A stretch of DNA of 64,000 nt. Source: Saccharopolyspora galaxeae. GTDB lineage: Bacteria; Actinomycetota; Actinomycetes; Mycobacteriales; Pseudonocardiaceae. The position numbers and the translations under genes are program-made. This document shows, in pieces, positions 34,066 to 39,400 of the stretch (positions within the stretch are counted from its first letter, which is position 1; each line of letters begins with the position of its first letter). Location of the stretch: positions 434,001-498,000 of the forward strand of contig NZ_JADDUE010000001.1 of assembly GCF_016526145.1 (NCBI RefSeq), read 5' to 3'. The notes beneath the pieces are model-generated. The model was not told the DNA's origin and did not search any database. It was given only the letters and a program-made list of their open reading frames with translations.

Positions 34066-34557
34066 TCAGTGCTCGCCGTGCTCCTTGGCGCGCCGGTAGG
34101 AGCGGTGGATCTCCTCCTCCGCCTCGGTCCGGCCGACCCAGGTGGCGCCCTCCACGCTCTTGCCCGGCTCCAGATCCTTGTAGACCTCGAAGAAGTGCTG
34201 GATCTCCAGCTTGTAGAACTCCGCCAGGTGGTGGATGTCGCGCAGGTGCTCCTGGCGCGGGTCGTCCGAGGGCACGCAGATGAGCTTGTCATCGCCGCCC
34301 TTCTCGTCCCGCATGCGGAACATGCCGACCGCGCGGGCGGTGATTAGGCAGCCGGGGAACGTCGGTTCCTGCACCAGCACCAGCGCGTCCAGCGGGTCCC
34401 CGTCCTCGCCGAGGGTGTGCTCCACGTAGCCGTAGTCGGCCGGGTACTGGGTTGCGGTGAACAACGTGCGGTCCAGCCGGATCCGGCCCGTCTTGTGGTC
34501 CACTTCGTACTTGTTCCGGCTCCCCTTGGGGATTTCGATAAGGACGTCGAACTCCAC
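34066..34557 (-). CDS. ppa: Soluble inorganic pyrophosphatase
   Basis: The protein has 163 residues from GTG 34557 with GTGAGGA upstream; sequence further upstream is not family-like. Family I pyrophosphatase: [38 protein letters not shown] (the Asp signature) and the C-terminal [20 protein letters not shown]. The tail KEHGEH is close to the His-rich end seen in actinobacterial enzymes. It converts PPi to phosphate in the cytoplasm, pulling biosynthetic reactions forward. It is divergent from dacB. Confidence 0.96.
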
Positions 34558-34831: not shown

Positions 34832-37800
34832 GTGCCCGAACCCCACAGCATCCGGGGTGAGGTGTCCGATCCCGATCGCGAGCAGCACTCGGACTCCGCG
34901 CGAACGTCGAAGACGGGGGCCGGGGACCAGGCGAGCGCGGACGCGGACACCACGCGCCCGGAGCAGCGCTCGCCGTCCGGCGAGCCGGAGCCGGGTGGCC
35001 GGTCGGCCGGCGCCAAGACGCTCGCGGGGGACGTGCGCGGCGGGGCGGACAACGGCGGTGGCACGCGGGTTTCCGGAGATCTCGCGGACGGTCAAGGATC
35101 GGAGCAGCCGGACGAGACCGGGCGATCGGAAGGTTCCTCGCACGACGAAGCCGCCGGGTCCGCGGAGCGTTCGTCGGATGCTGCGGCGGATTCCGGCACG
35201 GACAGCGCCCAGCGGCAGGCCGCTGCGCAGGATTTTTCCGGTTGGCAGGCGGGTTCTGGGCTGTTCGGCGCTACCTCGGCGCCGAGTTCCGCGCAGCGTC
35301 GTGGTGCGTTCGCGGCGCCGATGGTCGGCGAACTGCCCACTGATGACGCCGGGGCCGAGGAGGACTCCGGTGCGCGTGCGAGCTCCGAGGGATCAGACGC
35401 GGCGGATGACGACCGCGCGGGTTCGTCCGAGGAGGCCGTGGCCCGGACGGCGGATCAGGACGGGCAGGTAGCTGCCGACGAGGATGTCTCGGCGCCCGAA
35501 TCCGATGTCCCCGAATCCGATGCCGTGGAATCCGATGCCGCGGACGACGATTCCGGCGTGGGGGAAACGCGCGGTTCGTCCGAGGAAGCGGGCGCGCGGT
35601 CCGACTCGACGGCTGCTGAAGCGCCCGCCGCGGAAGCCGCGGAGCCGCAGCGTGCATCCGGCTGGGCGGGCCAGGCGGTGGACCAGGTGGCGAGCCCGGC
35701 GGAGAGCGGAACCGAGGAGCGGAGCAACGGGCAGCCGGACACCGGCGAAGACGAGCGGGACGCGACGGCCGACGGCAGCCGGTCCCGGGCTTCACCCGAG
35801 GTGGACGCCGATTCCGGCCGGAGTGCCGAGGGCGGTGCCGGCCCGGAAGAGGTGACCGGTCGGTTCGGGACGGTGGACCGGAATTCCGGGGCTGCCGAGC
35901 AGGAATCCGGCACCGGGCAGGACGCGGAGACCGGGCCGGTCGATCCGGCGACCGGCGAGCAGGACCCGGCAGGCCCGAGCAGCGCGGCGACCGGCGGTGT
36001 CCGGACCGCCGAGCAGGGGCCGACCGATCGACGAGCGGCCGAGGGCTCCGGCCGGGCCACTGCGCGCTTCGCGACGGGGCGGATCGATCGTGCGCCCGAG
36101 CGCTCCGCGGACGGGGTGGCGGCCGAGGACTCCGCCGACGCGGACGGTGTCAGCGCGGGCGGTGCTGATCCGGACCGCGCCGACCAGGAAGGTTCCGATC
36201 AGGTAAGTGCTGGTCAGGGACGCGCCGATCAGGAGAACGCCGATCAGGGCCGCGCGGATCAGGGCCGAGACGAACAGGACGGCGACGGCCGGGACCGCTC
36301 TGGTCAAGACAGCGACGACCAGCACGGTGCCAGCCAGGATGACGCTGATCCCGACCGCGCCGACCAGGACGGCGAGGACACCGGCCGGTCCTCGGACGAG
36401 CGGCCGGACGCGGCTGCAGAACCCGAGCAGGCGGTTCGAGCTCCGAACGCCGAACCCGACGGGCCTGACGAAGACGCGCAGGCGACCGGACCGCTCGGCG
36501 CCTCCGACGAACAAGCAGCGGCGGAGTTGCCCCGAGCGGCCGGTAGCAGCGCGGGAACTCAGCAGATCACCGGTACCGCCGACCCGGACGGGCAGGCGAC
36601 CGGGAAGTTCGAGGTCGTCGACGAGGATGCCGGGGAGGGCGCCGAGGACGGCTCGGTTTCGGATCGGGAGGAGACCGACGAGTCCGCCACGCAGGTGACC
36701 GGCCGGTTCGAGACGGTCGAGCAGGACGAGGTTCCTGCCGCGACCGAGCCGGTGGCGGGCGAACGCGACGCGGACTCCGCGCCGGCCGAGCCAGCGGAGG
36801 TCGATCCAACCGCGGCCGATCCGGTCGTGGGCGACTCGGCAGCGGTCGAGCGCGGTGCGGATGCCGAGTCGGCCCCGTTTACCGACCCAGCCCCGTTCAC
36901 CGACCCAGCCCCGTTCACCGAGCCAGCCCCGTTCACCGAGCCGACCACAGCGGCCGAGTCGGTCCCGGCCGAAGGCGCTGCAGCGGCGGCCGAGCCGCTC
37001 GCGGATGAGCCTGCTGCGGATCCCACCGCGGTCGACTCGGTCCCGGCCGATGATGCCGCCGGTTCAGCGGCAGCCGCGCCCGAGCACGACGAGACTCCGA
37101 CGGGGGAAGACGGCTCCCAGCCCGGCTTCACCGGCCAAGCCACCGGCCGCATCGATCTCGACGACATCGACGCGCCAGCGGACACCGCGCAGCGCGAGGA
37201 CACCTCGCCGCCCGCGCCCGCCGCGACCGCACCGGAGGTCGACCAGACCGGGGCGACGCCCGATGAAGGCGAGTGGGCCACCGCCGAGCAGCAGCGCATC
37301 GACGTCCCGATCGCCCCCGGCTCCGCAGGCACGCCCGCAGCGGACCCGTCGTTCCCCGGTGCGGACACCGCGCCGCCCGCGCCGGAGGAACCGGTCGATT
37401 CCGCCTTCTCCGCGGACTCCGGTTCGGACCCGATCGGCACCCGCGGCGGTGGGCTCGCGAGCGGTCCGCTGCGGGAGGCGCCGCCGCCCTCCGACGTCGA
37501 GCGGACGCAGCAGCTGAAGCCGATCGAGGACACCCAGCAGTTCAGCGTCGCCGACCTGGAACGCGAGGTGGCCAGGCAGGAAGGCGGGCCCACCGAGCAG
37601 CGGCCCACCGAGCAGGGTTCCGCCGCGGACCGGAACGACGACGGCGGGCCTGCGACGACCCGGATACCGGTCGTCCCGCCAGCGCCCGAACCGGTCGAGG
37701 CGCCCTCGGACACCGAGACCACCCAGCAGTTCCGCATCCCGGACTTCAGCGCACCGCCGCGGCCAGGGCCGCCTGCGCCGCCGGCCGCTCAGCCGCACCA

Positions 37801-39400
37801 CTTCCCGTCGCCGCAGGCCAGGCAGGCACCGCCCGCCGCAGCGCCGCGATCGGCGCACCCGCAGGACTTCGCGGGTGCGCCGTCCCAAGCGCCCGGGCCG
37901 TACCGGGCGGCGCCGCAGCGGGTGACGCCCGCCGAGCACGAGCCGGACCTCCACGCCGAACCCGCCGAACCAGCCGAGCCCGCTGCGGAGGAACCGCGCC
38001 GGAAGCGGTTCCGCGGCGTGCTGGCCGTGGCGGTCGTGGTGGTGCTCGGCGTCGGCGCCGCGATCGGCGTGCCCGCCGCGATCGACGGCATTTCCGCCGC
38101 GCAGATCGCCGATCCGCCTGCGCCGGTGCGGTTGAGCCCGTCGATCAAGCCGGTCGGCTCCTCGGCTCCGGAACCGGCTTCGGCCGCGCTGGACGCGGCG
38201 CTGAACGGCCCGGCCTCGAACCCGGTGCTGGCGCCGTTCGGCGGTGTGGTGCTCGATCCGGCGACCGGCCGCACGCTGTGGGACCGCGGGGCGTCGCAAC
38301 CGCTGACGCCCGCCTCCACCGGCAAGCTGCTGACGATGAGCGCGGCGATGCTCACGCTCGACCACGAGTCGCGGTTCACCACCAAGGTGGTGCGCGGGTC
38401 GGAACCGGGCAGCGTGGTGCTCGTCGGCGGTGGCGACCCCACGCTCTCCAGCCTGCCCGCGGGGGACGAGTCGGTGTACCCGGGCGCGGCGCACCTCGCC
38501 GATCTGGCCGCGCAGGTGCGGGCGGCGACCGGTGGGCAGGTCACCTCGGTCAAGGTCGACAACAGCCGCTACAAGGGCCCGAAGCTGGCGCCCGGCTGGC
38601 TGCCGACGGACATCGCGGGCGGGCAGATGTCGCCGATGGAGCCGGTGATGCTCGACGGCGGGCGGAAGAATCCGAAGGAGGACTACAGCCCCCGCACCGA
38701 AACCCCGGCGCAGCAGACGGGGCAGGAGCTCGCGAAGCTGCTCGGGCTGCCGTCCTCGGCGGTCTCGGAGGCCAGCGCCGGGCCGAACGCGCAGAGCCTC
38801 GGCCAGGTCGAATCGCCGACGGTGCGCAAGATGGTCGAGACGACCCTGCTGCACTCGGACAACGTGCTGGCCGAAGCGCTCGGCAGGGAAGTCGCCATCA
38901 AGAACGGCAAGGAGCCGTCGTTCGCCGGCGCCACCCAGGCGGTGCGCGAAGTGCTGCAGCGCAACGGTTTCGACCTGACCGGCGTGCGGATGGACGACAG
39001 CAGCGGGTTGTCCACCAACGACAAGATCCCGCCGAAGGTGCTCGGCAACCTGCTGGCCGCGGCGAACTCGACCGGCGGGGCGAACGCGAACGGCGGTTCC
39101 GGCTCGACCGGCGGGGCGTCGGACAAGTCGGCGAAGCTGCGCGAGCTGCTGACCGGGCTGCCGGTGGCGGGCGGTTCCGGCAGCCTCGGCGACCGGTACG
39201 CGGACAGCTCCGGTCGCGGATGGGTCCGGGCGAAGACCGGCACGCTGGACGGGGCGAACGGCTTGGCCGGGTCGGTGGTCACCCGGGACGGCCGGTTGCT
39301 GGTGTTCGCGTTCATGTCCAACCACACCGGAAGCTCCGGCGTGCTGCGTCCCGCGCTGGACAAGGTCGCCTCCGCGTTGCGGGAGTGCGGCTGCCGCTGA
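34832..39400 (+). CDS. dacB: D-Ala-D-Ala carboxypeptidase (PBP4/DacB type) with giant cytoplasmic extension
   Basis: The protein has 1522 residues from GTG 34832 (GAGGAGG upstream). Residues 1 to about 1055 are acidic and disordered (Glu, Asp, Ala, Pro, Gly). A basic RRKRFRG is followed by one membrane helix (about 1062-1085). The outer part (about 1110-1522) is a peptidase S13 domain: SxxK S1162-K1165 (STGK), SDN at 1342 and KTG at 1468, so all three catalytic motifs are intact. It trims or cuts wall peptides outside the cell. The usual M. tuberculosis-like homologue has a short N terminus. The extension repeats T-G-R-F and T-Q-Q-F units (Thr 342, 410, 590, 623, 901, 964 and others) and four 18-bp units at 36872-36943. 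Confidence 0.93.
36872..36943 (+). repeat. Four tandem 18-bp units inside dacB
   Basis: Units at 36872, 36890, 36908 and 36926 read GCCCCGTTCACCGA(C/G)CC(A/G) with few changes, coding Ala-Pro-Phe-Thr-(Asp/Glu)-Pro. In-frame expansion would not disrupt the protein. Confidence 0.85.

Follow-up and report, generated by a model that had tools for sequence, protein, structure and literature searches.

FHA domains read phosphorylated threonine (phospho-Thr, pThr), with extra specificity for the residue at position +3 (PMC4157861). In Mycobacterium tuberculosis, the CwlM peptide NDRPTGTFTFAELLA binds the FHA domain of FhaA via pT382, with Phe at +3 (PMC6180346), and mycobacterial FhaA is described as a hub to which CwlM and MurJ bind when phosphorylated (PMC6180346, PMC11898655), its interactome in M. 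smegmatis including Mvin, CwsA and SepIVA (PMC11898655). Kinase motifs reported for M. tuberculosis are E-x-x-pT and pT-x-P, and 88% of the inhibitor-sensitive PknA/PknB sites are Thr (PMC5845002); at pThr sites that depend on PknA, Leu/Val is preferred at +3, in a motif with acidic residues at -1 and -3 to -6, a basic residue at +4 and Pro at -1 or +2 (PMC7164672). In vivo phosphorylation of GarA at ETTS has been found in Saccharopolyspora erythraea (PMC12321487), and therefore Thr kinases act in the group of organisms considered here. Here, we describe dacB, a gene for a PBP4-type carboxypeptidase in a 64,000-nucleotide stretch of the Saccharopolyspora galaxeae genome (the window; positions are counted from its first letter). 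The long N-terminal tail of its product carries repeated Thr motifs (units), which probably form an array of phospho-Thr docking sites.

The dacB gene (34832..39400, plus strand) starts with GTG and encodes 1,522 amino acids. A GGAGGAG sequence stands directly 5' of GTG 34832, and this start is backed by the similar N-terminus MP[ED]P..xRGEVS that close relatives share. The product belongs to the S13 (PBP4) carboxypeptidase family (Pfam Peptidase_S13 PF02113, E 1e-69; TIGR00666, 195 bits at a cut-off of 107.8); the S13 set SxxK/SxN/KTG is complete and intact (STGK 1162, SDN 1342, KTG 1468), and enzyme activity is predicted. The top hydrophobic stretch begins at residue 1062, and the approximately 1,057 residues N-terminal to this helix are predicted to be cytoplasmic by the positive-inside rule. 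It should be noted that tail starts and helix positions, as well as the gene calls in the genome sample used below, follow simple ad hoc rules.

In the DacB tail, T-x-x-[FIL] (x or a dot stands for any residue) occurs 12 times, compared to 2.8 expected, and none of 5,000 whole-tail shuffles reaches 12, which bears out the recurrence noted in a preliminary description of this DNA. The nine Thr motifs listed there are all exactly in place, and three further units were found (T415, T576 and T942). When shuffling was restricted to 30-residue blocks, one of 5,000 shuffles reached 12. The narrower motif T.[RKQ][FIL] is seen 11 times versus 0.34 expected. All controls were at or near chance: the Ser version S..[FIL] (5 vs 3.8 expected), the reversed order [FIL]..T (3 vs 2.8), T..V (3 vs 2.9), and the offset controls T.[FIL], T...[FIL] and T[FIL] (1 each vs 2.8 expected for each). 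An origin of the array by chance, or by low-complexity drift in a repetitive tail, is hardly credible. Such drift would be in keeping with the many short DNA tandem repeats in the tail (12 rows) and with the gain and loss of distal units between species; however, it is already contradicted by the controls, given that neither shuffling, whole or local, nor the Ser and offset controls yield the array, that the sampled genome's other disordered segments give counts close to chance (79 vs 67, dacB excluded), and that unit Thr is conserved between relatives. Furthermore, the codons vary between units, so that the units are not plain recent DNA copies.

The same motif was counted across the family, Pseudonocardiaceae (family assignments rest on named relatives). 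A match was present in 118 of 120 family genomes, from which 60 loci were picked, at least one for most genera, with partial hits excluded. Among the 61 tails available with the window (the same-species locus L035 included), the 56 of at least 60 residues contain T..[FILM] 208 times versus 69.6 expected, and S..[FILM] 69 times versus 82 expected; the frequency of a hydrophobic residue at +3 is 0.114 after Thr and 0.032 after Ser, with a single peak at +3 and at no other offset. With named loci added, 86 non-identical tails of at least 60 residues (of 105) contain 327 T-x-x-[FILM] versus 106.4 expected (the largest of 200 shuffles gave 136), the Ser version is depleted (98 vs 132.9 expected), and at least one unit is found in 80 of the 86. 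The logo of 187 family sites has E at -2 (3.1x), K/R/Q at -1, Q/M/V at +1, R/K/Q/W at +2, I/L/F/M at +3 (by definition), K/R or V/L/I at +5 and V/I/P at +6. These 86 tails have 69 matches to the strict context E-[RQKE]-x-[QTMDVERA]-[QRKWHVTA]-[FILM]; the acceptor position x is Thr in 67 of them, Gly and Pro in one each, and Ser, E, D or A in none. A motif that is Thr-specific and far above chance in the family fits phospho-Thr/FHA signalling. Two context features attributed to the units earlier need correction. A hydrophobic residue at +5 is a tendency only (hydrophobic 0.29, basic 0.28 at the 187 sites); acid at this position is rare (0.03 vs 0.19 background). The tail is acidic as a whole, but acidity is weak around single units of the window's DacB, with 0-3 acidic residues among the six that precede Thr.

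Conservation was compared in 136 pairs of 17 related tails, in which unit Thr is kept in 54%, other Thr in 22%, Ser in 21% and all residues in 30%. The expectation that motifs would be conserved while spacers drift was supported for the membrane-proximal part (last 150 residues; unit Thr 70% vs other Thr 20%) and not supported for the distal units 342-771. In these last 150 residues, the +3 residues are kept in 70% of comparisons, but other hydrophobic residues are also kept in 51%. The order of the four membrane-proximal units can be traced across genera, whereas that of the distal units cannot; distal TG[RK]F units are species-specific (see T342 in Table 1). Within one genus (4 tails, 5 units), unit Thr is kept in 93% versus 26% for other Thr.

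The Thr-biased T-x-x-hydrophobic code is wider than DacB and is also present in VanW-type and MurJ tails of the family (totals for both include near-identical pairs, and those for MurJ also some membrane-junction hits). The cytoplasmic tails of 30 VanW-type loci, taken from the best matches (a match is present in 56 of 60 genomes), contain the Thr motif 114 times versus 29.9 expected and the Ser motif 4 times versus 23.2; the frequency of a hydrophobic residue at +3 is 0.251 after Thr and 0.013 after Ser, and the strict context has Thr 28, Ser 0 and Ala 11 times. A VanW/PG_binding_4 protein of the same genome as the window (L112:14469-17033 = C11:62469-65033) has a tail of about 290 residues with nine T..[FILM], including ERTTRIS, ERTATIP and ERTDTIP, and this array recurs in relatives. 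For MurJ (30 loci, 59 of 60 genomes with a match, 26 loci with tails of at least 30 residues), the counts are 60 versus 12.9 expected for Thr and 23 versus 15.5 for Ser, the +3 frequencies are 0.293 and 0.123, respectively, and the strict context has Thr 9 and Ser 0 times. MurJ of the window's genome (L253:1084-3003, C11) stops after the membrane domain and lacks the mycobacterial C-terminal domain (checked in this genome only), and its N-terminal tail carries the units STRPIP, DTQPIP and EQTQVLR. MurJ tails of another family, that of genome G126, are near chance (16 vs 11.6 in 27 tails); there, 32 of 43 MurJ matches lie in open frames of at least 1,190 codons, consistent with the additional C-terminal domain that has been described in mycobacteria. 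In the family of genome G269, the MurJ motif is not Thr-specific, because the N-terminal tails (L334-L363) are enriched in T..[FILM] (33 vs 14.7) but more strongly in S..[FILM] (72 vs 23.6).

The units could also be short motifs that bind a partner, for instance a polar scaffold protein, independently of phosphorylation. The conservation of an extended motif that includes both basic and hydrophobic positions speaks for this, as do the similar units in other wall proteins and in a DivIVA-like protein. Nevertheless, we regard this explanation as quite unlikely, because only a phosphate-dependent one explains well why the acceptor is Thr and never Ser, with none of E, D and A in the strict DacB context, although Ala does stand beside Thr in the strict context of VanW-type tails (11 vs 28).

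The array was not found in the sampled loci of other families. Twenty DacB loci from other families of the same order (L154 is cut by the contig end) contain three T..h (Thr with a hydrophobic residue at +3) in total, with tails of at most 41 residues in 14 loci, 95-162 in three and 360-388 in three; the last three (L151, L152 and L153, from one other family of the order) have no Thr units, and the tail of L151 is Ala/Glu-rich. In 25 named Nocardia/Rhodococcus-type loci, grouped by title, there are 9 T..h versus 4.5 expected, of which 5 come from L200, probably misnamed; with L200 set aside, the tails have 17-20 residues in 23 of 24 loci and 45 in one, and no array. A DacB array in other families is therefore rejected for the sampled loci. 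The L200 record itself, titled Rhodococcus rhodnii NRRL B-16535, carries the family array and appears to belong to Pseudonocardiaceae.

Within the window's own genome, a sample of 864 kb in 41 stretches, some chosen for kinase/FHA genes, gave 694 called proteins, 156 of these with disordered segments. A proteome-wide motif was rejected: DacB has 11 T.[RKQH][FILM] and the next protein 3, and the sample minus dacB has 20 versus 14.0 expected, with 13 versus 13.6 for the Ser version. A matrix built from 274 DacB units of other genera was then run on 18,018 Thr in 1,013 called proteins (1.242 Mb of this genome). Among the 4,933 Thr in low-hydrophobicity context, those of the window's DacB rank 1, 2, 4, 17, 24, 26, 34 and 49, the VanW/PG_binding_4 protein 3, 14 and 28, a coiled-coil protein with a sub-cut-off DivIVA match 5 and 6, MurJ 13, and a second PASTA kinase, in its juxtamembrane part, 29 and 51; many further rows of the list fit no identified explanation.

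We consider it probable that the DacB tail is a multivalent phospho-Thr docking array, written by a PknB-type kinase and read by FhaA or another FHA protein. Both an acceptor that is Thr and not Ser and a selective +3 residue, the features expected of a docking motif of the CwlM-FhaA type, were found. According to this model, each unit, approximately E-[RQK]-T-[Q/T/G]-[R/Q/K]-[F/I/L]-x-x-[V/I/P], would be a phospho-Thr site; a PknB-type PASTA kinase would phosphorylate the unit Thr, and an FHA domain would then grip both the phosphorylated Thr and the hydrophobic residue at +3. The genome encodes four FHA proteins, FhaA and three more. FhaA is the most likely candidate for the reader; its FHA domain matches the solved FHA domain of Rv0020c (E 2.7e-43 over 91 residues), and the only Amidase_3 match of the genome is a CwlM homologue with the C-terminal end DDQPTGTFTFDDLL. 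As long as the kinase is active, several docked FHA proteins might keep the wall-trimming DacB at the growth machinery, from which a phosphatase, for example PstP, might release it. The four membrane-proximal units would be the conserved core, to which the fast-changing distal units may add valency. The multi-site phospho-scaffold put forward in the preliminary description is thus supported by Thr specificity, family enrichment and proximal conservation, and is not supported by distal conservation or by a full fit to kinase motifs.

Several observations weigh against docking. The distal units are poorly kept in place (unit Thr 46% vs 22% for other Thr in the same 136 pairs), and 6 of the 86 tails of at least 60 residues have no unit at all. 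Published mycobacterial kinase motifs agree with the DacB logo, which has E at -2 and R/K/Q at +2, at +3 only; none of E-x-x-pT, pT-x-P and basic +4 is prominent among the 187 sites. The DacB matrix gives moderate scores to the PknB juxtamembrane part (71 and 217 of 4,933), GarA (182 of 4,933) and CwlM (263 of 18,018), and DacB is not named among the FhaA partners in the available portion of PMC11898655. Finally, a kinase rule alone could yield Thr plus the +3 residue, given the Thr preference of PknA/PknB (PMC5845002) and Leu/Val at +3 (PMC7164672). The units would then be kinase substrate sites without an FHA reader, whose phosphorylation alters the charge or shape of the tail and tunes DacB activity, clustering or turnover. 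We consider this unlikely, if still worth taking seriously, since the absence of Ser against 67 Thr in the E-[RQKE]-x context and a fixed motif that runs on to +6 are more suggestive of a binding site, and the units resemble the FhaA-binding site of CwlM.

With docking as the preferred explanation, we tentatively suggest, as a serious possibility, that Pseudonocardiaceae evolved a shared Thr-only T-x-x-hydrophobic docking code on the cytoplasmic tails of wall proteins that are otherwise unrelated (DacB, VanW-type proteins, MurJ and perhaps DivIVA-like proteins), by which one FHA hub would bring wall trimming together with lipid II export and the modification of the wall, as kinase activity dictates. 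For MurJ, this would mean that the docking site was transferred from a folded pseudokinase to motifs in the tail; the assembly would become multivalent, perhaps condensate-like, through the long arrays of DacB. How wall-trimming enzymes are coupled to wall synthesis in bacteria is a long-standing question. If true, a sequence-defined code would link a carboxypeptidase, a second class of wall proteins and a flippase to one phospho-reader; it names residues to mutate and offers a pattern for finding further members of the network in antibiotic-producing actinomycetes.

Other features of the tail and its surroundings are as follows (Table 1). The first ~13 residues of DacB (window 34832-34876) are kept in related tails while the sequence that follows drifts, and are possibly a further binding motif. 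DNA tandem repeats at 36864-36942 and 36176-36278 (an 18-base unit, PAPFTD/E, and a 15-base unit, RADQ-type) are distinct from the Thr units. In 14 tails (including L064, L176, L177, L178 and L207), all from Saccharopolyspora species or near relatives, 1-4 copies of a second repeat, [ST]-P-x-D-F-A-G-L, lie in the stretch that separates the last Thr unit from the membrane; the window has a single variant, HPQDFAGA (37859-37876). A ppa match lies upstream of dacB in all 61 loci (the window and 60 fetched loci, strand left aside), and ppa is divergent from dacB in 76 of 80 named loci.

Table 1. Coordinates of dacB features and of the neighbouring gene in the window
Feature	Position	Strand	Basis or remark
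ppa, divergent neighbour upstream of dacB	34066..34557	-	ppa match also upstream in relatives
dacB, PBP4-type (S13) carboxypeptidase gene	34832..39397	+	S13 profile, motifs
Disordered acidic tail, DacB residues 1-1057	34832..38002	+	composition, hydropathy
Distal unit T342 TGRF	35855..35866	+	Ser replaces the +3 Phe in another genome of the species
Distal unit T410 TARF	36059..36070	+	motif match
Distal unit T415 TGRI	36074..36085	+	motif match; newly found
Distal unit T552 TGPL	36485..36496	+	motif match
Distal unit T576 TQQI	36557..36568	+	motif match; newly found
Distal unit T590 TGKF	36599..36610	+	motif match
Distal unit T623 TGRF	36698..36709	+	motif match
Distal unit T771 TGRI	37142..37153	+	motif match
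Conserved membrane-proximal unit T892 TQQL	37505..37516	+	rank 1 of 4,933 in DacB-matrix scan
Conserved membrane-proximal unit T901 TQQF(SVADL)	37532..37543	+	resembles CwlM pT382 site
Conserved membrane-proximal unit T942 TTRI	37655..37666	+	conserved; newly found
Conserved membrane-proximal unit T964 TQQF(RIPDF)	37721..37732	+	conserved
Membrane helix, DacB residues ~1062-1081	38015..38074	+	hydropathy
Predicted extracytoplasmic catalytic region with STGK, SDN, KTG	38084..39397	+	S13 profile, motifs

No title or abstract opening that we found describes such an array in DacB, VanW-type or MurJ tails. The short-tailed PBP4/DacB of Nocardia/Rhodococcus is of the same catalytic family, with ppa upstream in 24 of 25 named loci (one misnamed), but differs in its tail and has no array. 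The ETTSVF switch of GarA/OdhI is similar in that Thr has Phe at +3 and is a target of an actinobacterial Thr kinase, and it is present in the GarA-like protein of this genome; however, GarA is soluble, acts in metabolic regulation and has a single site, which its own FHA domain reads, compared to the array of DacB. Mycobacterial MurJ (MviN) is, like DacB in our model, a wall-synthesis membrane protein, tied to FhaA by phospho-Thr (PMC6180346, PMC11898655), but its dock is a folded C-terminal pseudokinase domain, whereas MurJ of this genome has units in the N-terminal tail instead. The CwlM-FhaA pair of M. tuberculosis shares with DacB the T-x-x-F core and an E/D-L stretch behind it, and the CwlM homologue of this genome retains the site. 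CwlM, however, is a cytoplasmic protein with one C-terminal pair of sites, whereas DacB has about twelve units in the tail of a membrane-anchored wall enzyme.

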